The notes under the pieces are model-generated. The model saw only the letters and a list, made by a program, of their open reading frames with translations. It did no database searches and was not told the DNA's origin. 40,768 bases of DNA from a virus. A program made the translations under genes and the position numbers. The stretch is taken from IMG/VR virus record IMGVR_UViG_3300021437_000007, positions 1 to 40,768 of that record. One strand, given 5' to 3'. This document shows positions 1-40,768 of the stretch, one piece after another. The stretch's first letter is position 1. The number at the start of each line of letters is the position of its first letter.

Positions 1-127
1 TAGAGTACGCGCCGCGTGTACTCTCAGGTCGCGGCGGCGGCTCTTGTCACGTTTACTTTCGTACAGAGTTACCGCAGCAAAGCTTTAAAGCTTTAAGGTC
101 TTCACACAAAGTTAAAGTCTTTATGCC
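1..127. repeat. Left copy of 127-bp terminal direct repeat (circular junction)
   Basis: These 127 bases are identical to the last 127 bases of the window (40642-40768). The open frame of the primase-helicase passes through the repeat without interruption when the ends are joined. The length equals a common maximum assembly k-mer. The simplest inference is therefore a circular or circularly permuted genome written with its overlap duplicated, rather than a biological terminal repeat. Confidence 0.9.
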
Positions 128-2012
128 CTCAACGCCGCCAACTGACGCCGACAAGATGAGCGGGCTCTCTGAAGCTGAGCTTAACGAAGGTTATCGTATG
201 CGGCTCGCTTGGGAGATTGACGTTTACGGCGAAGGTAAACAAGTGGTTTTACCGCCGTCGATACACCCCGATACGTACCGAGCTTATGAATGGGACTGCG
301 AACTACAAGACATAGATCAGATACCTTTAGTCGCTAACTTTGTGTTAGGCGACAAGAAGCTTACTAAGCTAAAAGATGTGTCAGCCGATATAGATTACGA
401 CTACTCTTTAGCTGATAATTATAATTTAAAGAAAGCTGACTATCAGCTAATCGTTAACGGCGAAGGTTACGATAAGCGCTACAAGTCGCGCTCTGAGGCC
501 GTCATGGGTGCTATCAATATGCTCGCCTACTCAGGGTGTAAAGACGCTGAAATAACGGCGGTTATGACTGACGAAGAGAACTTTATATCTGAGAAGCCCT
601 TAGAAGCGGGTCGAGGTAATCGTGAAAAGGCCGCCGAGTGGCTCGCTAAACAGATAGCTAAAGTACGTGCTGACATGAGCGCAGCTAACGACTTTAAAGG
701 TATTGACGCTAATGACACTGACGCCATACTTAGCGAAGCCGAAGCCCTTATACAAGAAGAAGAGCTAACGCCTTGGATATCAAAGCTTAAAGGTAAAGAA
801 GGCGCTTATAAAAATACAGCCTATAACTTACAGCTTATTCTTAGGCACGGGTTTAAAGAAGCTCGTATCTTTGGTTACAACGCCTTCACTCAAAGCATGA
901 TCTACTTAGCGGCGCCGCCTTGGGGCTCAGCTAAAGACATAGGGCGCGAACTTGTGGACGCCGACGACACGCACGCTAGAGTCTGGTTATCGCGCTACTA
1001 TGGCCTTGAGACGAGTACACATGCCGTTAACGAGATAATAACAATTTTAGCTAATGAGAATACTTTTCACCCCGTACAGACTTATCTTAACGCTCTTGAA
1101 TGGGACGGCGTCGAGCGCTTAGATACATGGCTTAGTACATACCTACAAGCCGAAGGCGATAAAGATTACTTAGCCGCCGTAGGCCGAAAGACTTTAACGG
1201 CTGCGGTCGCTCGTATCTACAGAGCGGGCACTGAGTTTCACCACATGCTTATTTTAGAAGGTACTCAAGGCTGCGGTAAGTCTTCGACTGTAAAGATTTT
1301 AGCAAGCCCTGAGTGGTTTAGTGACTCACTAGGCGACGTAACTAATAAAGACATTATCGAAGTTATGCGGGGTAAGTGGCTTATCGAAGTCGGCGAGCTT
1401 GCGGCTATGAATAGATCAAGTGCAAACGATATGAAAGACTTTATAACTAAAGCGTCTGATACACACCGTAAAGCTTTCGCCCGCAGGGCCGTAACAGTGC
1501 CGCGCCAAAGTATCTTAATCGGTACGACTAACGACCAAGAGTACTTAAAAGACCCTACAGGGGGCCGCAGGTTTTGGCCTGTACGCGTAGGCCAAGTCGA
1601 CTTTAAAGCGCTAATAGCTGACCGCGATCAGCTTTGGGCCGAAGCTAAGTTTAACTATGAGATAGGCGAGAAGCTTTACTTAGAAGACCCTAAAGTTAAA
1701 GCCATAGCTGAAAGTGAGCAGTACGATAGAGCTATCGTCGACGAGATTGAAAGCGCCGTACTCGACATATTAGATGGTATGGACTCTAACGAGATTATTT
1801 TTAGTGAGTTTTTTGATACCTTCTGCGCCCGCTTTGGCGTTAAAGAGACCGACTACGCGGCTCAGATACGTATTAAAAAGATATTCACTAAGCTTAAGTA
1901 TAAAAAGATACGAAGGCGTACCGAAAAGGGCCGAGTTTATGTGTGGATTAGGGGCGATACTAATTATAAAATTTATAACAGCGTGAAAGGTTTTCACTAT
2001 GACGAAGAGTAA
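3..2012 (+). CDS. PrimPol/VirE-type primase-helicase, C-terminal part (start lies at 40350)
   Basis: This is the larger part of a 767-residue protein that begins with GTG at 40350 and crosses the circular junction. Joined residue numbers follow. The archaeo-eukaryotic PrimPol domain is at about 1-200. It has a D73-x-D75 metal motif, H114 in a glycine-rich SGRGGG context, and a segment at about 168-187 ending in PPSIHP that is typical of bifunctional primase-polymerases. A VirE/superfamily 3-like helicase follows, with Walker A GTQGCGKS at 518-525, then an IEVGEL acidic strand and a GTTND sensor-like motif. The basic C-terminal tail may bind DNA. The protein should prime and unwind DNA at the phage origin. 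The ATG at 123 is only an internal methionine (residue 139). The 3' end overlaps the next gene by 14 bp. Confidence 0.93.
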   Translation, partial: EYAPRVLSGRGGGSCHVYFRTELPQQSFKALRSSHKVKVFMPSTPPTDADKMSGLSEAELNEGYRMRLAWEIDVYGEGKQVVLPPSIHPDTYRAYEWDCELQDIDQIPLVANFVLGDKKLTKLKDVSADIDYDYSLADNYNLKKADYQLIVNGEGYDKRYKSRSEAVMGAINMLAYSGCKDAEITAVMTDEENFISEKPLEAGRGNREKAAEWLAKQIAKVRADMSAANDFKGIDANDTDAILSEAEALIQEEELTPWISKLKGKEGAYKNTAYNLQLILRHGFKEARIFGYNAFTQSMIYLAAPPWGSAKDIGRELVDADDTHARVWLSRYYGLETSTHAVNEIITILANENTFHPVQTYLNALEWDGVERLDTWLSTYLQAEGDKDYLAAVGRKTLTAAVARIYRAGTEFHHMLILEGTQGCGKSSTVKILASPEWFSDSLGDVTNKDIIEVMRGKWLIEVGELAAMNRSSANDMKDFITKASDTHRKAFARRAVTVPRQSILIGTTNDQEYLKDPTGGRRFWPVRVGQVDFKALIADRDQLWAEAKFNYEIGEKLYLEDPKVKAIAESEQYDRAIVDEIESAVLDILDGMDSNEIIFSEFFDTFCARFGVKETDYAAQIRIKKIFTKLKYKKIRRRTEKGRVYVWIRGDTNYKIYNSVKGFHYDEE

Positions 2013-3920: not shown

Positions 3921-4331
3921 TTACTCCTTCGGGGTTATGGCTATCTTACGGCGTAAGCAGCCGCAAGACTTCGTTTGCCCGAAGCGTAGTTGATAGCCCG
4001 CTACAAGTAAAGAGTTACCGCAGTCGCAAGTACATACGTAGTACGCAGCGCGACTACGCTTAGAGGCTCTAAGCCCGTAAAAGGCTTTCACATACAAGCG
4101 ACCGTACCGCTTACCCGTTTCGTCTTTATAGTTATGGCTACGTTTACGAAAGTCGATAGTCGGGTCGACACGCTTAAGAGCCCTACGCACTTGCACTATG
4201 TTAGTGGCGTGCATAAAGGCTATATCTTTAATCGAGATGCCGCGCTTATAGCATGAGTAGATAGACTCTAGGACTGATTTAGTCATACGGTAGCGGCGCT
4301 TTATAATGCGGCCTTGGGGTAGGTTATTCAT
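3921..4331 (-). CDS. Helix-turn-helix plus zinc-ribbon DNA-binding protein
   Basis: This 136-residue basic protein starts with a helix-turn-helix-like region (about residues 17-52, including GISIKDIAFMHATNIVQVRR). It continues with a module that begins GKRYGRLYV and ends in a cysteine cluster CTCDCG...SCGCL. That module occurs in phage HNH/AP2-type homing-nuclease relatives, where the cysteines bind zinc. No catalytic HNH residues are visible, so DNA binding is the safer call. It is the first leftward gene out of the divergent dyad region and may regulate it. The ATG at 4331 lacks a clear ribosome site. Confidence 0.62.
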   Translation of the reverse strand: MNNLPQGRIIKRRYRMTKSVLESIYSCYKRGISIKDIAFMHATNIVQVRRALKRVDPTIDFRKRSHNYKDETGKRYGRLYVKAFYGLRASKRSRAAYYVCTCDCGNSLLVAGYQLRFGQTKSCGCLRRKIAITPKE

Positions 4332-4338
4332 ACCGTTT

Positions 4339-4368
4339 AAGGTACTTGAGTATGTACGCTTATGTCAA
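4339..4368 (-). promoter_or_regulatory. Candidate leftward promoter with dyad element in spacer
   Basis: On the minus strand a perfect TTGACA (4368-4363) is followed after 18 bases by TACCTT (4344-4339). The spacer is mostly TAAGCGTACATACT, one of the four repeated outer elements of the dyad region. A protein bound there would block or activate this promoter. The predicted start would leave almost no leader before the ATG at 4331, so the -10 call is uncertain. Confidence 0.42.
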
Positions 4369-4902
4369 TAGGGGGTAAACCTAACTAGGTTTTGTATGTA
4401 CGCTTATTACCCTTTAAGGGTATGTATCTGTCCCTAGCTGTCCCTAGTTTTGGCCCTAGTACTTAAATGAGCACGGGCCGTTATTCTTTAGTAGTTTCAT
4501 ATACTTATCTATACTGTCCCAAGTGTCCTATATAATATATATAGTTAACTAATAGTTATATTATAGCTACTATATAGCTATATAGATTATGCCTATTATG
4601 TAGGCATATAGCGTATATATCCTATACAGCCAACATACGAAAATGCTTGGTCCACTTGGGCCAGCCCTAAGTATGTGTAATCATTAAAGAAACTTCATAA
4701 CGATTTAAAAAGGACTTGGGACAGCACTAGGGCCAGCTTAAAACGTAGGCATTTAGGATAAAACGGGCTAAATAGGGCTTAGCGTACATACTTTAACGTG
4801 TTTTTAGGGGTTTTAAGCGTACATACTAAGTTTTCAGGGGCGCCGCTTATGGCCGAGCGGCCTACGATTTAACTTGATACATTATAATAATGTGGTTAAC
4901 TC

Positions 4903-4919
4903 TACCCCATAAAGGGGTA
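4903..4919 (+). promoter_or_regulatory. Hairpin overlapping the ribosome-binding site of the 4924 gene
   Basis: TACCCC (4903-4908) pairs with GGGGTA (4914-4919) around an ATAAA loop. The purine-rich AGGGG that should serve as ribosome-binding site for the ATG at 4924 is part of the right arm. A TATAAT (4883-4888) just upstream could be a -10 box, but no good -35 was found at the proper distance. Confidence 0.5.
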
Positions 4920-4923
4920 ACAC

Positions 4924-5328
4924 ATGTCTAAAAGAATAAACGTGAGAGCGAAAGGCTTTGCTTTCGAGCGTTATATCGCAGCCGCTATGCGTATGATCGG
5001 CTACACGAAAGCTCACCGTCAGTTAGAGTTTCAGATAAACAACGCTTTAGGCATAGATATAGCTGAGACGGGGCGCTACAAGATACAGTGTAAGAAGACT
5101 AAGAAGTACGTACCTATGAATACGATTAACGAAGTTAAGTACAAAGGTGACGAGATACCCGTACTTATCGCAGCGGGCGACGGCGAGCCGCCTTTAGTGA
5201 CTATGAGGCTTGAAGACTGGTTAGAGCTTGTAAGTAAAAACTTCTTAGACGTTAATACTACTGTTATGGACCGTGTCGACGTGATAGAAGGCTTAAAAGA
5301 TATTAAAAACAATAGACATAAGGAGTAA
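4924..5328 (+). CDS. PD-(D/E)XK-type nuclease, possible Holliday-junction resolvase
   Basis: The 134-residue protein fits the archaeal-type resolvase/restriction-like fold. A glutamate lies in the first helix (GFAFERYIAA, E15), D45 is in LGIDI, and Q55-C-K57 sits on the following strand in YKIQCKK. These are the spacing and residues of the E...D...(E/Q)xK active site. Such enzymes cut branched recombination or replication intermediates before packaging. It is the first rightward gene out of the dyad region. A restriction-like or other structure-specific nuclease remains possible. Confidence 0.7.
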   Translation: MSKRINVRAKGFAFERYIAAAMRMIGYTKAHRQLEFQINNALGIDIAETGRYKIQCKKTKKYVPMNTINEVKYKGDEIPVLIAAGDGEPPLVTMRLEDWLELVSKNFLDVNTTVMDRVDVIEGLKDIKNNRHKE

Positions 5329-6908: not shown

Positions 6909-7178
6909 ATGCTAAACGAAAACACCATAAGAACTTTGAAGCCTGCTCAAGTGGCTTCTATTATGCCTTGGGACGCCTGCGAAGGCGTCGTGATTTTGTG
7001 TCTAGCTAAAAAAGGTGAGCCTAATAATATCGTAATGTCTACAGTTACGATAGAAGAGCTTGCACTACTTACGGCTCAACTACAGGCGCACCTTAATTCA
7101 CTTTTATTTAACTCATTAGTAGAGGACGTACCGACGAAGAAAGCAGAGGCCACAAGTGGACCTGACGCTAAAAAGTAG
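6909..7178 (+). CDS. Hypothetical small alpha/beta protein
   Basis: The 89-residue protein has a compact core (SIMPWDACEGVVILCLAKKG then a helix, EELALLTAQLQAHLNSLL) and a disordered charged C-terminus. The strand-turn-strand-helix pattern suggests a small globular fold. No family is recognised. It overlaps the next gene by 23 bp. Confidence 0.6.
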   Translation: MLNENTIRTLKPAQVASIMPWDACEGVVILCLAKKGEPNNIVMSTVTIEELALLTAQLQAHLNSLLFNSLVEDVPTKKAEATSGPDAKK

Positions 7179-9428: not shown

Positions 9429-11198
9429 ATGAAATTAACTAGAGAGTCTGACATACTAGACCCATTAAAACGCGCTAAAATTATTCAAGAGATAGAAGGT
9501 CAAGAGAATCGTACACGTAAGTACGAAGCTTTTAAACGCTATCAATGCTACAAAGATATGACTAATCATTACGTTATGAATTACTTACTACGTCAGTTTG
9601 AGCAGAATACTGTTAACGAGATGAGATACGCTTTATCTAATATCAGCTTCGTTAGAAAAGTAGTCGATAAGCTCGCTCGCGTGTACTCGAACGGCGTCGA
9701 GCGCTGTATTTCAGGCGACGAAGAAGCGACCGCAAAGCTTAAAAAGATTGAAAAGGTTTTTAAACTTAATGAGACTTTAAAGTCGACTAATCGTTTTTTA
9801 AAACTACAAAAAAATATCGACCTTTTCGTTAAGCCTTACCCACATTATGAGGGCGGCTCAGACGTACCTAAGTACCGTATCACGTTAGACGTACTTCAGC
9901 CGTATCTATATGACGCTCTTGAGAGTGGCTACGACCGCACGACGGCTTTAGCTATTGTATTATCAGACTATACTCACCCAAGTACTGACCTTATGGACTT
10001 AGACTCTCGTAGTACGAAAGTGTTACCGCTTGCGCCGCCTGCGGGCGTAAGGGCCGATAACATAGATCAGACGATAGCTAATAGCCCTCAAGATAAGGGC
10101 GCTAACCCTTCTAATAAGCATTATGTGTGGTGGTCTAAATCGTTTCATTTTACGACCGATAATAACGGCGAGATTATAGCAGACGAGCTAGGTAAAAAAG
10201 ATACCGCTAACCCGCTTAATAAACATTTCAGTCATATTAACTTTGCCATAGATCAGGACGGCTCATTTTGGGCTCAAGGCGGTAACGATTTAATCGACGG
10301 CGCTATCTTACTTAATGGCGTAATTACGCATACCACACACGTAGGCGTGACCCAAGGTTACGGTCAGTTTTATATGACGGGCGAAAACTTACCTAGAGTA
10401 ATTAAAGTCGGCGTTACGAAGTCTATACTTGTGGAGTACAAAGGCTCTGAGCAGCAAGCTAAACCTGAGCTTGGCTTCTTATCAGCTAACCCGCAGCTAG
10501 ACGCTTTACGCTCTCTTATCGAGATGTACATAGCCCTATACTTAACGACTAATAACTTAAGTACTTCAGGCGTAAGTACGCAGCTTAAAGGCGGTACGAG
10601 CTTTGCGTCAGGTATAGCTTTAATCTTAGACATGGCTGAGTCATTAGAAGACGTACACGATCAGCGCCAAGTATTTTTAGATAACGAGCTATGTATCATT
10701 AAAGCGATTAACGAAACGCTTAAAGCTTACGGCGATAAACTCGACGACGACTTTAAAGATTTAGTCCTACCTGACGGCTTTGAAGAAAACTTCACGGTAA
10801 AATTTAACGACGCAAGTCCTATTATGACTGAGAAAGAAAAGCTAGAGTCACTAGAGTTACGTCGTGAAATGGGACTAGAAACTCGTATCTCTATGATTAT
10901 GAAAGATGACCCGACTCTTGACGAAACTCAAGCCGAAGAAAAGCTTTTAAAAATGATCGAGCAAGAGATAGAAGAGAAGGTCTTAGAGATGCAAGCTCAG
11001 CAAGACGCGGGCCTTAACGTACAGACTGACGTTAACGGTAACCCGATAGACCCTAATGCGCCCCCACAAGTGGACGCTAACGGTAACCCTGTAGCTCAAG
11101 ACCCTAATGCAGCACCCATACAGCCTAATAAGCCGCCCGTACCTGACGTTAAAAAGAAGGTCGGTAAGAAACTTAACTCAGACGTTAACAAACTATAA
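9429..11198 (+). CDS. Portal protein
   Basis: This 589-residue protein follows the large terminase by 9 bp, the classic portal position. Residues 60-100 (YALSNISFVRKVVDKLARVY) look like the conserved opening of portal proteins. A long helical region at about 440-530 (EKEKLESLELRREMGL with DETQAEEKLLKM) fits the stem/crown helices, where the EK.. and AEE patterns recur in portals. The C-terminal 60 residues are proline-, asparagine- and lysine-rich with two DVNGNP/DANGNP repeats, probably flexible. It forms the dodecameric DNA gateway at one capsid vertex. Confidence 0.82.
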   Translation: MKLTRESDILDPLKRAKIIQEIEGQENRTRKYEAFKRYQCYKDMTNHYVMNYLLRQFEQNTVNEMRYALSNISFVRKVVDKLARVYSNGVERCISGDEEATAKLKKIEKVFKLNETLKSTNRFLKLQKNIDLFVKPYPHYEGGSDVPKYRITLDVLQPYLYDALESGYDRTTALAIVLSDYTHPSTDLMDLDSRSTKVLPLAPPAGVRADNIDQTIANSPQDKGANPSNKHYVWWSKSFHFTTDNNGEIIADELGKKDTANPLNKHFSHINFAIDQDGSFWAQGGNDLIDGAILLNGVITHTTHVGVTQGYGQFYMTGENLPRVIKVGVTKSILVEYKGSEQQAKPELGFLSANPQLDALRSLIEMYIALYLTTNNLSTSGVSTQLKGGTSFASGIALILDMAESLEDVHDQRQVFLDNELCIIKAINETLKAYGDKLDDDFKDLVLPDGFEENFTVKFNDASPIMTEKEKLESLELRREMGLETRISMIMKDDPTLDETQAEEKLLKMIEQEIEEKVLEMQAQQDAGLNVQTDVNGNPIDPNAPPQVDANGNPVAQDPNAAPIQPNKPPVPDVKKKVGKKLNSDVNKL

Positions 11199-15883: not shown

Positions 15884-16299
15884 GCAGTTACATTGTACAG
15901 ACCGCCGTAGCTGCGTCGAGCGTACCTAATGCCGCCGCAGGCAAAGTCAATATTTTTGTAGATATCGCCGACGGTATTACTAAATCGAAAGACTCGGCGG
16001 GTACTGTAGTGCCTTTTAGGCCGTCGGCTAATGTGTCTAACTCTTCGAGTTTAAGTACGTACACTATAACAGACGAAGACTTTTTTAGGGGCTTTGGGGC
16101 TTTAGCTCAAGTAGTAACTTTACCAGACGCTACAAGTAACACGAAAGAACGTAATATAAAAAACACAAGCTCAGGTGATATGACTATAACAGGCATATCG
16201 GGGCAAACTATCGACGGTAACGCTAATTTAGTGTTACGCGGTGGTAAAAAACAGAGCGTAACGCTTAGGTCTGAAGGGGGCTTATGGTGGATAGTTTAA
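15880..16299 (+). CDS. Beta-rich structural protein
   Basis: The 139-residue protein starts in an ATGA-type overlap. The N-terminal part (VNIFVDIADGITKSKDSAGT) resembles a motif common at the N-terminus of phage fibre and appendage proteins. The C-terminal part (TLPDATSNTKERNIKNTSSG and GGLWWIV) forms short strands resembling a beta-helix cap or small sandwich. It is probably a virion appendage. Confidence 0.58.
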   Translation: MSSYIVQTAVAASSVPNAAAGKVNIFVDIADGITKSKDSAGTVVPFRPSANVSNSSSLSTYTITDEDFFRGFGALAQVVTLPDATSNTKERNIKNTSSGDMTITGISGQTIDGNANLVLRGGKKQSVTLRSEGGLWWIV

Positions 16300-17846
16300 T
16301 AAAAATTTTAATGGTACTTACGTTAGCTTTAAATGCTAACGCTACGTACTTAGATAGTGTAGATGTAACGTCTAACGGCTCGCCCGTTAGTAACACTAAC
16401 CCGTTAGGGGTTAGATTAAGCGACGGTACGAGCTATATTAGCACGCTACCCGTTTCTTTAGCGTCAATACCTTTAGCTTCAGGTGCGGCTTTAGCATCTT
16501 GGCAAGCGTCTTCTGACGCGACTTTATCGGCGTTAAACGCTAAAACGCCCGCGCTAGGTCAAGCTTTAAATGCCGCCTCAGTGCCCGTCGTACTTACGGC
16601 ATCTCAACTAAGTACTTTAACGCCTTTATCAAGCGTAAGTATCAGCGGTACGCCTTCGGTTAATGTGGCTAACGCTTCGTTAGCTGTTACGGGCGCTTTC
16701 TTTCAGGCTACGCAGCCCGTCTCTTTAGCGTCAATACCTTTAGCTTCAGGTGCGGCTTTAGCATCTTGGCAAGCTTCGGCTGATACCACATTATCAGCGA
16801 TTAACTCAAAACTTGCGGGTACTATCGCTACAAGCGTGGCGGGCGGCGCGACTTCAGCTTTACAAACTAGCGGTAATAGCTCACTTAGTACTATCGCTTC
16901 TAACACTACAGGCGTAAGTACCGCAGCTAATCAATCTACTATGATTACGTCGTTAAATACAATAGCGGCTAATACGGGCGCTCAATCGACCGATACTATC
17001 GCTACGGGCTCTATCTCAGCACTTAACGGCGCGGTTTTAGTTAACGCTCAAGGGGCGTACACGATTAGCGCTAATATTGCGGGTACTTTCGTAGGTACGG
17101 TCGTAGCCGAAGGGCAAGACGCAAGCGGTGTGTGGAATCAACTACCTATGTATATCGTGCAAACGACTACACCTTACCCTCAAACTTTCACGGTAACAAC
17201 GCCGTCGACGGTTTTAATTACGGGCGGCGGTTATGCGTCTGTACGCATACGGTCGAGTGCTTTTACTTCAGGTACGATTAACGTAGGCTTAAACGCTTCT
17301 TTAGCTCAGCAAACTATATTCTCAGCACAGTTAGGTACTTGGGCCACAAAGCCCGTACAAGTAGCCACATATGGGGCTTCTATAACGGGTGCGTCGTTTG
17401 CCGTAGCTAATACCGATGTGTTTACTATCACGGGCTCAGCGACTAAAACGATTAAAATTAAACATATTTCGCTTGACGGTACTCAAACTACTGCGGGCGT
17501 GGTCGGTATTCTTTTAATTAAGCGGTCTACTGCTAACTCGGGCGGTACGTCTACAGTAGTTACTTCGGGGCCTTTCGACTCTACAAGCGCCGCAGCGACC
17601 GCAGTAGTACGTCAATATACGGCCAACCCGACCGTCGGTACGCCTGTAGCTACTTTGCACTCTGAAAAAGTCTTCGTAAGTACGACTACGGGTCAACCTG
17701 ACGAGCTTAAGTTTGACTTCTCAAACTTGACGGGTATGCAAGAGATAACTTTACGGGGCACTAATGAAGTTTTAGCTATAAACTTAAACGGCGTTTCAGT
17801 GACGGGTAGTTCTTTTAACGCCGACATAACATGGACCGAGGAGTAA
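16284..17846 (+). CDS. 520-residue structural protein with Sec signal peptide and internal repeats
   Basis: An AAGGGGG site precedes ATG 16284, which overlaps the previous gene by 16 bp. Residues 1-20 look like a Sec signal peptide: MVDSLIK, a hydrophobic ILMVLTLAL core, then NANA before threonine. The body has a 59-bp DNA repeat that encodes PVSLASIPLASGAALASWQA twice. The linker is Ser/Thr/Ala-rich. A beta-sandwich-like region (about 250-350) follows with WNQLPMYIVQ and GGGYASVRIRSSA, and a C-terminal domain follows that. Phage proteins with similar sandwich segments are virion proteins. A signal peptide in such a gene is unexpected, and export to periplasm or cell surface is possible. Confidence 0.65.
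   Translation: MVDSLIKILMVLTLALNANATYLDSVDVTSNGSPVSNTNPLGVRLSDGTSYISTLPVSLASIPLASGAALASWQASSDATLSALNAKTPALGQALNAASVPVVLTASQLSTLTPLSSVSISGTPSVNVANASLAVTGAFFQATQPVSLASIPLASGAALASWQASADTTLSAINSKLAGTIATSVAGGATSALQTSGNSSLSTIASNTTGVSTAANQSTMITSLNTIAANTGAQSTDTIATGSISALNGAVLVNAQGAYTISANIAGTFVGTVVAEGQDASGVWNQLPMYIVQTTTPYPQTFTVTTPSTVLITGGGYASVRIRSSAFTSGTINVGLNASLAQQTIFSAQLGTWATKPVQVATYGASITGASFAVANTDVFTITGSATKTIKIKHISLDGTQTTAGVVGILLIKRSTANSGGTSTVVTSGPFDSTSAAATAVVRQYTANPTVGTPVATLHSEKVFVSTTTGQPDELKFDFSNLTGMQEITLRGTNEVLAINLNGVSVTGSSFNADITWTEE
16449..16507 (+). repeat. 59-bp direct repeat, copy 1
   Basis: This segment inside the 520-residue structural gene recurs 267 bp downstream with 58 of 59 bases the same (T at 16454 is C in copy 2). 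It is in frame and codes for the same 20-residue protein motif. Near-identity at synonymous sites indicates recent duplication or gene conversion. Confidence 0.85.
16716..16774 (+). repeat. 59-bp direct repeat, copy 2
   Basis: This is the second copy of the in-frame repeat in the 520-residue structural gene. After it, the two copies diverge at the DNA level but still encode similar residues (TLSALNAK and TLSAINSK). Confidence 0.85.
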
Positions 17847-36424: not shown

Positions 36425-37030
36425 TTACATGCCATATTCTGACAAGTCTAATGCGTCTTCGTTTGACTCTTCGTAGTTACTTGGGTCGTCTGCGCCTTCG
36501 TTATCAAAGTCTTCAGCCGCGTTACCGCGCGTACTGAAAGGCTCACCGTCGCGTGTCTTCATAAACGCACGAAGTAAAAGCTTAACGTACTTACTGACTA
36601 CCTTACCGCTCTTAGGGTCTTTGTACTCTTCAGCTTTAACAGCTACCGAGACTTTACCGTAACAGCCTGCGTAGGCTTCTTCTTCGCCTATATCATTACG
36701 GTCTTTGTCGATTACCGCTACAGGATAGATAGACTTTGCGTGAGCGTAAAAGTGGCCTGCGAACTGCTCGCCCGCGTCGCCGCCCTTTTCGTCGCCATCA
36801 AGTATAGGTAACTTTACGCCTTTAGTCGTACCGAACTTCTTAATAGCTTCGGCGTTAATCGTGTCGCGAAGTTTCTTAAGGTCTGTACGCTTAGTAAAAA
36901 GCATAGTTAACTCATACTTTGCCGCGCTCTCGTCGTCGAAAGCTCTCTTCTGAAATAATGAAGGGAACGATAAACGGCACTCAGGCGTAATAACGGTCGG
37001 GTGCTTTGGGGTTTTCTTTTCTGTAGCCAT
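36425..37030 (-). CDS. Single-strand DNA-binding protein (DUF2815-type)
   Basis: The 201-residue protein has the DUF2815 signature: LSFPSLFQKRAFDDESAAKY, ELTMLFTKRTDLKKLRDTIN, then VIDKDRNDIGEEEAYAGCYG and VSVAVKAEEYKD. It ends in an acidic tail (EDFDNEGADDPSNYEESNED), like SSB tails that recruit partners. It should protect single strands in replication and recombination. Its gene lies beside the DUF2800-type nuclease, a common phage pairing. Confidence 0.82.
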   Translation of the reverse strand: MATEKKTPKHPTVITPECRLSFPSLFQKRAFDDESAAKYELTMLFTKRTDLKKLRDTINAEAIKKFGTTKGVKLPILDGDEKGGDAGEQFAGHFYAHAKSIYPVAVIDKDRNDIGEEEAYAGCYGKVSVAVKAEEYKDPKSGKVVSKYVKLLLRAFMKTRDGEPFSTRGNAAEDFDNEGADDPSNYEESNEDALDLSEYGM

Positions 37031-40069: not shown

Positions 40070-40348
40070 ATGAGCAAAGATAATTCAATTACATTAAAAC
40101 AATACATAGACGCTAGAGGCGTACATACCGTAGCGGCTTTATGCCGTGTAACGACCGCAGCGGTTTACGCTTGGGCTAAAATGCAAACGCCGCCCGTGCC
40201 GTTACTCGCGTACCTAATGATAGAGGACTCTATGGGTATGCTGAGCTTTAACAGTATCTACGGTCAGTACATACACCACAATTATAAATTAGTAACAGAC
40301 CACAAAGCTAAAGATTTTACGGTTAATCAGTCTCAGCAAGAGTTTTAA
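40070..40348 (+). CDS. Cro/YdaS-like helix-turn-helix regulator
   Basis: The 92-residue protein has a short N-terminal strand or helix (ITLKQYIDARG). A helix-turn-helix follows with VHTVAALCRVTTAAVYAWAK, a Q/T-A-A-V-Y-x-W pattern common in Cro and YdaS family proteins. A C-terminal helical region probably dimerises. It lies beside the divergent promoter region and directly before primase. It could control both the leftward DNA-metabolism unit and its own. The protein looks like a lone regulator, with no CI-type partner recognised. Confidence 0.7.
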   Translation: MSKDNSITLKQYIDARGVHTVAALCRVTTAAVYAWAKMQTPPVPLLAYLMIEDSMGMLSFNSIYGQYIHHNYKLVTDHKAKDFTVNQSQQEF

Positions 40349-40349
40349 T

Positions 40350-40768
40350 GTGGATAAGTTACAATATCTAAAACGCTTCTATAACTTGGGCTTTGCCATT
40401 ATATGGCTCTACCCCCAAAGTAAGCGCCCCATAGGCGAAGAGTGGCAAACGGGTGACCGTAAGCACTTTGATACTCTCACGAAAACTTTTAAAGAAAGCT
40501 TTAACGTGGGCGTGCGTCTTGGTAGTGCGTCAGTACTCGAAGACGAAACTTTTTTATGCGTATTAGACTGCGACGTTAAAAGCTCTGAGCCCCATTACTT
40601 AGCTGAGATGGAATTAGCCCTAAAGAACTTCGCGCCCTCTATAGAGTACGCGCCGCGTGTACTCTCAGGTCGCGGCGGCGGCTCTTGTCACGTTTACTTT
40701 CGTACAGAGTTACCGCAGCAAAGCTTTAAAGCTTTAAGGTCTTCACACAAAGTTAAAGTCTTTATGCC
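40350..40768 (+). CDS. PrimPol/VirE-type primase-helicase, N-terminal part (continues at position 1)
   Basis: This is the beginning of the protein that ends at 2012 when the genome is closed. GTG 40350 overlaps the stop of the regulator gene (TAATGTG). The ATG at 40348 is in another frame and stops after seven codons. Residues include the PQSKRPIGEEW opening, NVGVRLGS, catalytic LDCD (D73, D75) and SGRGGGSCHVYF (H114), so the metal site of the primase lies wholly in this half. The window ends after 139 codons plus two bases. Confidence 0.92.
   Translation, partial: MDKLQYLKRFYNLGFAIIWLYPQSKRPIGEEWQTGDRKHFDTLTKTFKESFNVGVRLGSASVLEDETFLCVLDCDVKSSEPHYLAEMELALKNFAPSIEYAPRVLSGRGGGSCHVYFRTELPQQSFKALRSSHKVKVFM
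40642..40768. repeat. Right copy of 127-bp terminal direct repeat
   Basis: Identical to positions 1-127. Reading from here into position 128 keeps the primase-helicase frame. It shows that the window holds the full circle plus 127 duplicated bases. Confidence 0.9.

Follow-up and report, generated by a model that had tools for sequence, protein, structure and literature searches.

Iteron origins lying directly 3′ of a primase-helicase gene have been described in SaPIs, in SCCmec Cch2 and in P4-like replicons. In SaPIs the C-terminal domain of Rep binds downstream iterons, apparently as two hexamers (PMC7581432), and in SCCmec residues 400-538 of Cch2, its C-terminal domain, bind AAGTG iterons downstream of cch2 (PMC7581432). 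The winged helix of the P4 alpha protein binds origin repeats, according to a passage of PMC4234260 that cites earlier work, and in pRN1, and by proposal in phage BIP-1, a stem-loop origin is located 3′ of an AEP primase-SF3 helicase gene (PMC4234260). Literature searches on PriRep1 and on VapE origins found nothing, and a search on phage-encoded-resistance origins returned nothing direct. An earlier note on the DNA studied here knew of no described phage origin with its layout; given the iteron origins just listed this overstates the novelty, since the class, a SaPI/P4-type iteron origin, is known, and it is the phage group and the elaborated dyad that are new examples.

The DNA analyzed, referred to as the window, is the whole 40,768-bp virus record IMGVR_UViG_3300021437_000007. 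Its ends are identical over 127 bp (1-127 and 40642-40768), and because a primase gene continues across the end-to-end join it probably represents a complete circular assembly. The repeat was also considered as true termini and this was rejected, as 127 bp is a k-mer length common in assembly and the reading frame of the primase spans the join; a circular assembly overlap is the likelier explanation. The gene in question encodes a PrimPol-VapE primase-helicase (123-2012, plus strand, with the N-terminal part at about 40350-40768, across the terminal overlap), and a gene for a Cro-like small protein (40070-40348) is found just 5′ of it. Farther downstream, a region of about 480 bases (4349-4827) lies in the noncoding DNA between two divergent genes, 3921 for an HTH and Zn-ribbon protein (3921-4331, minus strand) on the left and 4924 for a RusA-like/Mrr-like nuclease (4924-5328, plus strand) on the right. 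On the strength of the sequence comparisons below, we consider it highly probable that 4349-4827 is a replication origin bound by the phage's own primase-helicase.

The region is organized around two motif families, box A and box B, which form a dyad centered at about 4588, whose mirror symmetry is unmatched by a wide margin elsewhere in the genome. When the left arm was compared with the reverse complement of the right arm, with the AT core left out, the alignment score was 45.0 at center 4585 against a mean of 9.6 (sd 3.75) over all centers of the genome, and the ten best centers genome-wide all fell at this site. A blind search for mirrored 9-mers scored 6 in the window, while the maximum across 200 shuffles was 5. 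The box A consensus, CTGKCCCWAG, has six exact copies in the window, all confined to 4428-4736, compared with 0.10 expected from dinucleotide shuffles, and a seventh copy at 4450-4459 (TTGGCCCTAG) carries one mismatch. All four left copies are on the plus strand (4428-4437 and 4438-4447, both CTGTCCCTAG; 4450-4459; and the inner copy 4514-4523, CTGTCCCAAG) and all three right copies are on the minus strand (the inner copy 4655-4664, CTGGCCCAAG; 4715-4724, CTGTCCCAAG; and 4727-4736, CTGGCCCTAG). The pairs starting at 4514/4655, 4450/4715 and 4438/4727 have their midpoints at 4589, 4587 and 4587, and the copy at 4428 is without a right-hand partner. Successive copies are spaced by 10, 12 and 64 bp on the left and by 60 and 12 bp on the right. 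The mirror layout about 4588 put forward in the earlier note is thus borne out by the symmetry score, the motif enrichment and the midpoints; the seven A copies that it counted exist as sites, of which only six are exact, and the mirrored spacing that it reported holds for the 12-bp step on both sides and approximately for 64 vs. 60 bp, but not for the unpaired copy at 4428; the inner B spacing is 44 vs. 35 bp. Around the circle, GC skew reaches its minimum at 4199 and AT skew at 4625; both are confounded by gene direction, and as skew at fourfold sites was not decisive for the origin position, skew was left out of the origin argument.

Box B (GTATGTACGCTTA) occurs in three exact copies, at 4350-4362 (plus, outer left), 4394-4406 (plus, inner left) and 4814-4826 (minus, outer right), together with the inner right copy at 4779-4791 (minus, GTATGTACGCTAA), so that the four B copies of the earlier note are four sites, one of which has a mismatch. 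With up to one mismatch allowed, six copies were found vs. 0.10 expected; four of the six are in the dyad region and the distant one-mismatch copies are at 36881 and 38737. The outer pair is centered at 4588 and the inner pair at 4592.5, hence the spacing of the inner boxes is no exact mirror. A third dyad pair, absent from the earlier note, is a 24-nt element C centered at 4587.5, with its left copy at 4484-4507 (minus, TAAGTATATGAAACTACTAAAGAA) and its right copy at 4668-4691 (plus, TAAGTATGTGTAATCATTAAAGAA), so that on each side it is flanked by the inner A box and the outer A boxes. A DnaA box and an IHF site were considered for element C and dropped, as neither consensus fits by eye; it is probably a bending or accessory-factor site. 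The middle of the dyad is an AT-rich core (4529-4618) that we propose as the unwinding element, being the least stable 60-bp and 90-bp stretch genome-wide. Its A/T content is 79% over the best 90 bp, for which "nearly all A/T" was too strong a description, although the core is AT-rich and the hairpin is present. As single-stranded DNA the core folds better than shuffles (z = -3.1), forming several small hairpins only; the central one, at 4589-4607 (ATGCCTATTATGTAGGCAT), has the 7-bp stem ATGCCTA/TAGGCAT around TTATG.

The proposed initiator was characterized by profile and structure comparisons. The window protein matches Pfam VapE at 1.3e-73, and in a full-length relative Prim-Pol (2.9e-19) is detected along with VapE. 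The sole PDB match by profile was 7pds, PriRep1 (E = 9.9e-67), an entry titled "The structure of PriRep1 with dsDNA," and the Foldseek comparison with 7pds gave 5e-11. The C-terminal 100 residues, encoded at 1701-2009 (plus strand), are predicted to form three helices and a two-stranded wing, with pLDDT of 84-91 over the fold in a model built on nine sequences. With this domain as Foldseek query the best full-domain matches were winged-helix regulators (PadR, forkhead and SarA) at E values of 0.09 or worse, no Foldseek match was better than 0.08, methyltransferases appeared at similar E values with poor TM-scores, and a sequence search of the domain against the PDB returned nothing relevant. 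The modeled winged-helix domain is the likely binder of the boxes and may be a dsDNA-binding domain.

Compared with the described systems, the window is closest to the SaPI/PriRep type, in that it has a homologous primase-helicase, noncoding iterons downstream of the initiator gene as for PriRep1 (7pds), and an AT-rich region between iteron sets. It differs in that its initiator is encoded in a phage genome with its own family-A polymerase, SSB and exonuclease, and in that several genes separate the origin from the initiator gene; its strict mirror order with the extra elements B and C may be a further difference. SCCmec Cch2 is comparable in that its iterons directly follow a Primase_C-type helicase gene, whose C-terminal domain binds them, and its AAGTG iteron is contained in the window box extended as TGTCCCAAGTG, a match that may be due to chance; unlike the window, Cch2 has only three direct iterons, and its inverted repeats are not needed for binding. 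P4 alpha likewise combines helicase and primase in one protein, but its primase domain is TOPRIM whereas that of the window is an AEP-type Prim-Pol, which sets the window apart from the P4 type. pRN1 ORF904 and BIP-1 share with the window an AEP primase, an SF3 helicase, a winged helix (predicted in the window) and a proposed origin 3′ of the gene; the origin proposed there is one large stem-loop of about 100 nt without iterons, whereas the window has iterons and small hairpins.

We then asked what relatives of the phage carry at the corresponding place. A DNA search of the dyad region against 50,697 phage records gave no match, and single-sequence searches with the primase and the nuclease yielded only three relatives, two of them close and one distant. 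The useful set came from a terminase alignment, several contigs of which encode a homologous primase, and L050, from a metagenome-assembled genome labeled Candidatus Hydrogenedentota, was added by genome scan. The closest relative, IMGVR contig 3300048016_000100 (listed as L009, L012 and L014), has a primase 77% identical to that of the window and box A copies at 4998, 5009 and 5095 (plus) and at 5208, 5269, 5279 and 5298 (minus) with an AT core between, two copies having two mismatches to the consensus. Element C is kept on both sides (5056-5079 and 5231-5254, the latter with two mismatches), so that A boxes, core and C follow the mirrored order of the window, and, as in the window, other genes are located between the origin region and the primase gene. 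Box B is loosely present there without the mirrored orientation, one copy overlapping the start codon of the HTH/Zn-ribbon gene. A further contig, 3300046320_000063 (L010 and L011), has an equivalent form of this region and was not counted as independent. Conservation of the motifs in relatives, a check suggested in the earlier note, therefore holds for A in mirror order and not for a symmetric arrangement of B; the core function appears to involve A and C, and perhaps not B. Box B is probably a regulatory site of another protein, maybe an operator, outside the origin model, and the 3921 HTH/Zn-ribbon protein is a possible binder.

More distant relatives (L015, L050, L025, L026, L027 and L028), whose primases are 40-54% identical, have AT-rich cores and iterons 3′ of the primase gene. 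The block is directly downstream of that gene in all six, while in the window about 2.3 kb, with other genes in it, lies between the two. The iteron sequence itself differs among the lineages, being TGTCCCAAGTG/TGTACTAGGTG in L015, GGGCAAGGT in L050, TGTCCATAGTG in L025, TGTAACGTG in L026 (where some repeats are within the 3′ end of the primase gene), GGTGGATAC in L027 and TGTAGACGGTG in L028. A further contig, 3300013232_000178 (L016), has AATGTTACGTC repeats after its primase gene at 10320-10505 and ends inside them, from which it appears that the repeats broke the assembly. None of 200 shuffles reached the mirror score of the window, L014, L015, L050, L026, L027 or L028; in L028 nearly all left copies are plus and all right copies minus, with a score of 10 where shuffles attained no more than 4. 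L025 gave a weak result in the blind test, in which 23 of 200 shuffles reached its copy number and 5 of 200 its mirror score; with its own consensus, mostly forward copies were found left of the core and two reverse copies to the right. The L026 core contains, at 6968-6986, a 7-bp stem identical to that of the central hairpin of the window despite about 40% primase identity and different iterons. The refuting condition named in the earlier note, that relatives keep the genes while losing the symmetry, was checked on the relatives, and the origin reading was not refuted. Homologues of the Cro-like 40070 protein are similarly placed in L014, L015 and L050, and L016 and L026 have small reading frames resembling it in a similar position.

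To cover described phages, 17 records with VapE-type genes were sampled, five from the best matches and twelve evenly spread, and the noncoding gap 3′ of the VapE gene was examined (the 5′ gap in phiLNTR3, and beyond one small gene in LPPA36). Significantly repeated 9-mers were present in the gap of 15 of the 17 phages, and the order was significantly mirrored in 13; EC99P2 and phiLNTR3 had no repeat signal in the gap examined, SW30 and RcSalem had repeats (weak in RcSalem) without significant mirror order, and the signal of ECOO78 consists of three copies only. StauST398-2 and phi12 are near-identical in the gap and are to be counted once. Repeats 3′ of the VapE gene were found in Marinobacter PS3, Pseudomonas LPPA36 and Staphylococcus StauST398-2, as well as in Corynebacterium Adelaide, Bacteroides F2 and Paenibacillus Dante. 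Strict mirror order is thus common without being universal, since PS3, phi12 and some further phages have copies in mixed orientations. Downstream of its VapE gene, at 4584-4853, Pseudomonas phage LPPA36 (L052) has largely mirrored iterons CTGTCCCAC that are close to the window box A, with no detectable DNA similarity between the two phages there.

Two meanings had been offered for the dyad in the earlier note, an origin bound by an initiator and a set of cooperative operators for the divergent units. The former is now well supported, the primase-helicase being the likely initiator. As operators, the boxes would serve genes 3921 (minus) and 4924 (plus), and the symmetry would come from two promoters controlled alike; the region does lie between divergent genes, box B precedes the start codon of 3921 by 19-75 bp and has two copies per side, and 3921 encodes an HTH-like protein. 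Such a function would need neither an easily melted core nor element C, and a scan of 4300-4960 found no sigma-70-like promoter and no terminator. In L050, L025, L015, L026, L027 and L028, moreover, the plausible genes flanking the block are co-directional, with no divergent pair, and the iteron/AT-core layout is kept all the same; since the iterons differ by lineage and the flanks are mostly non-divergent, operators are argued against as the reason for the layout. Operators as the main function are accordingly unsupported and we regard them as quite improbable, though for the outer box B the operator reading may hold.

That the region is an origin opened by a different initiator is slightly more improbable again. 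The HTH/Zn-ribbon protein 3921, the ribbon-helix-helix protein 2505 and Cro-like 40070 are each small predicted DNA-binding proteins encoded near the region, and homologues of 3921 and 2505 are at the same place in L012/L014, but no homologue of either was found in L015, L050 and L026-L028, where the origin-like block is present, and the Cro-like gene, conserved in some relatives, is 5′ of the primase; the constant neighbor of the block is the VapE gene. The same neighborhood bears on a partition, packaging or recombination site, which we think very unlikely indeed: an AT-rich core between inverted repeats is not peculiar to origins, yet the genes scanned included none seen to be for partition, the terminase genes are 3 kb from the dyad while the neighbor conserved in relatives is the primase-helicase, and the return of such repeats 3′ of the VapE gene in phages not otherwise related is consistent with an origin.

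From the layout of the dyad and its conservation, the recurrence of iterons beside the primase gene and the homology to PriRep1, we infer how an origin at 4349-4827 might work. The C-terminal winged-helix domain would first bind the A boxes on double-stranded DNA. The left triplet plus inner box and the right pair plus inner box face each other across the core, and as the two sets point at each other, two hexamers would assemble face to face. These hexamers would then melt the AT-rich core, and each would be loaded on one strand and move outward. The facing box sets have the arrangement that the loading of two helicase hexamers in opposite directions would call for. The PrimPol domain would supply primers to the family-A polymerase of the phage, and replication would be bidirectional.

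Whether initiator and iterons change together was assessed across nine lineages, in which iteron similarity correlated with C-terminal-domain similarity (Spearman 0.48, Mantel p = 0.018); as the figure for the helicase was barely lower (0.43) and the iterons were picked by eye, the correlation is suggestive only. A broader reading, which we hold tentatively and consider rather doubtful, is that VapE phages share a mirrored-iteron origin design in which iteron and C-terminal domain co-change and C and B extend the dyad. The proposal is that facing iteron sets across an AT core, beside the helicase gene, position two hexamers for bidirectional loading. If iteron and C-terminal domain do change together, initiator specificity could be read from sequence, the series of iterons changing beside the domain would offer a natural set for studying DNA recognition by self-loading helicases, and the C and B pairs would point to a co-initiator or to a switch coupling replication to the divergent genes. 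The analysis places a probable origin and names a likely initiator for a group of uncultured phages that has no close relatives among described ones, and it gives a testable rule, namely that VapE-type phages should have mirrored iterons in the noncoding gap 3′ of the primase-helicase gene.

Apart from the dyad, an internal duplication was observed within the reading frame 16284-17846, whose protein has no PHROG match; it consists of two 102-bp stretches, 16443-16544 and 16710-16811, that are 85% identical.
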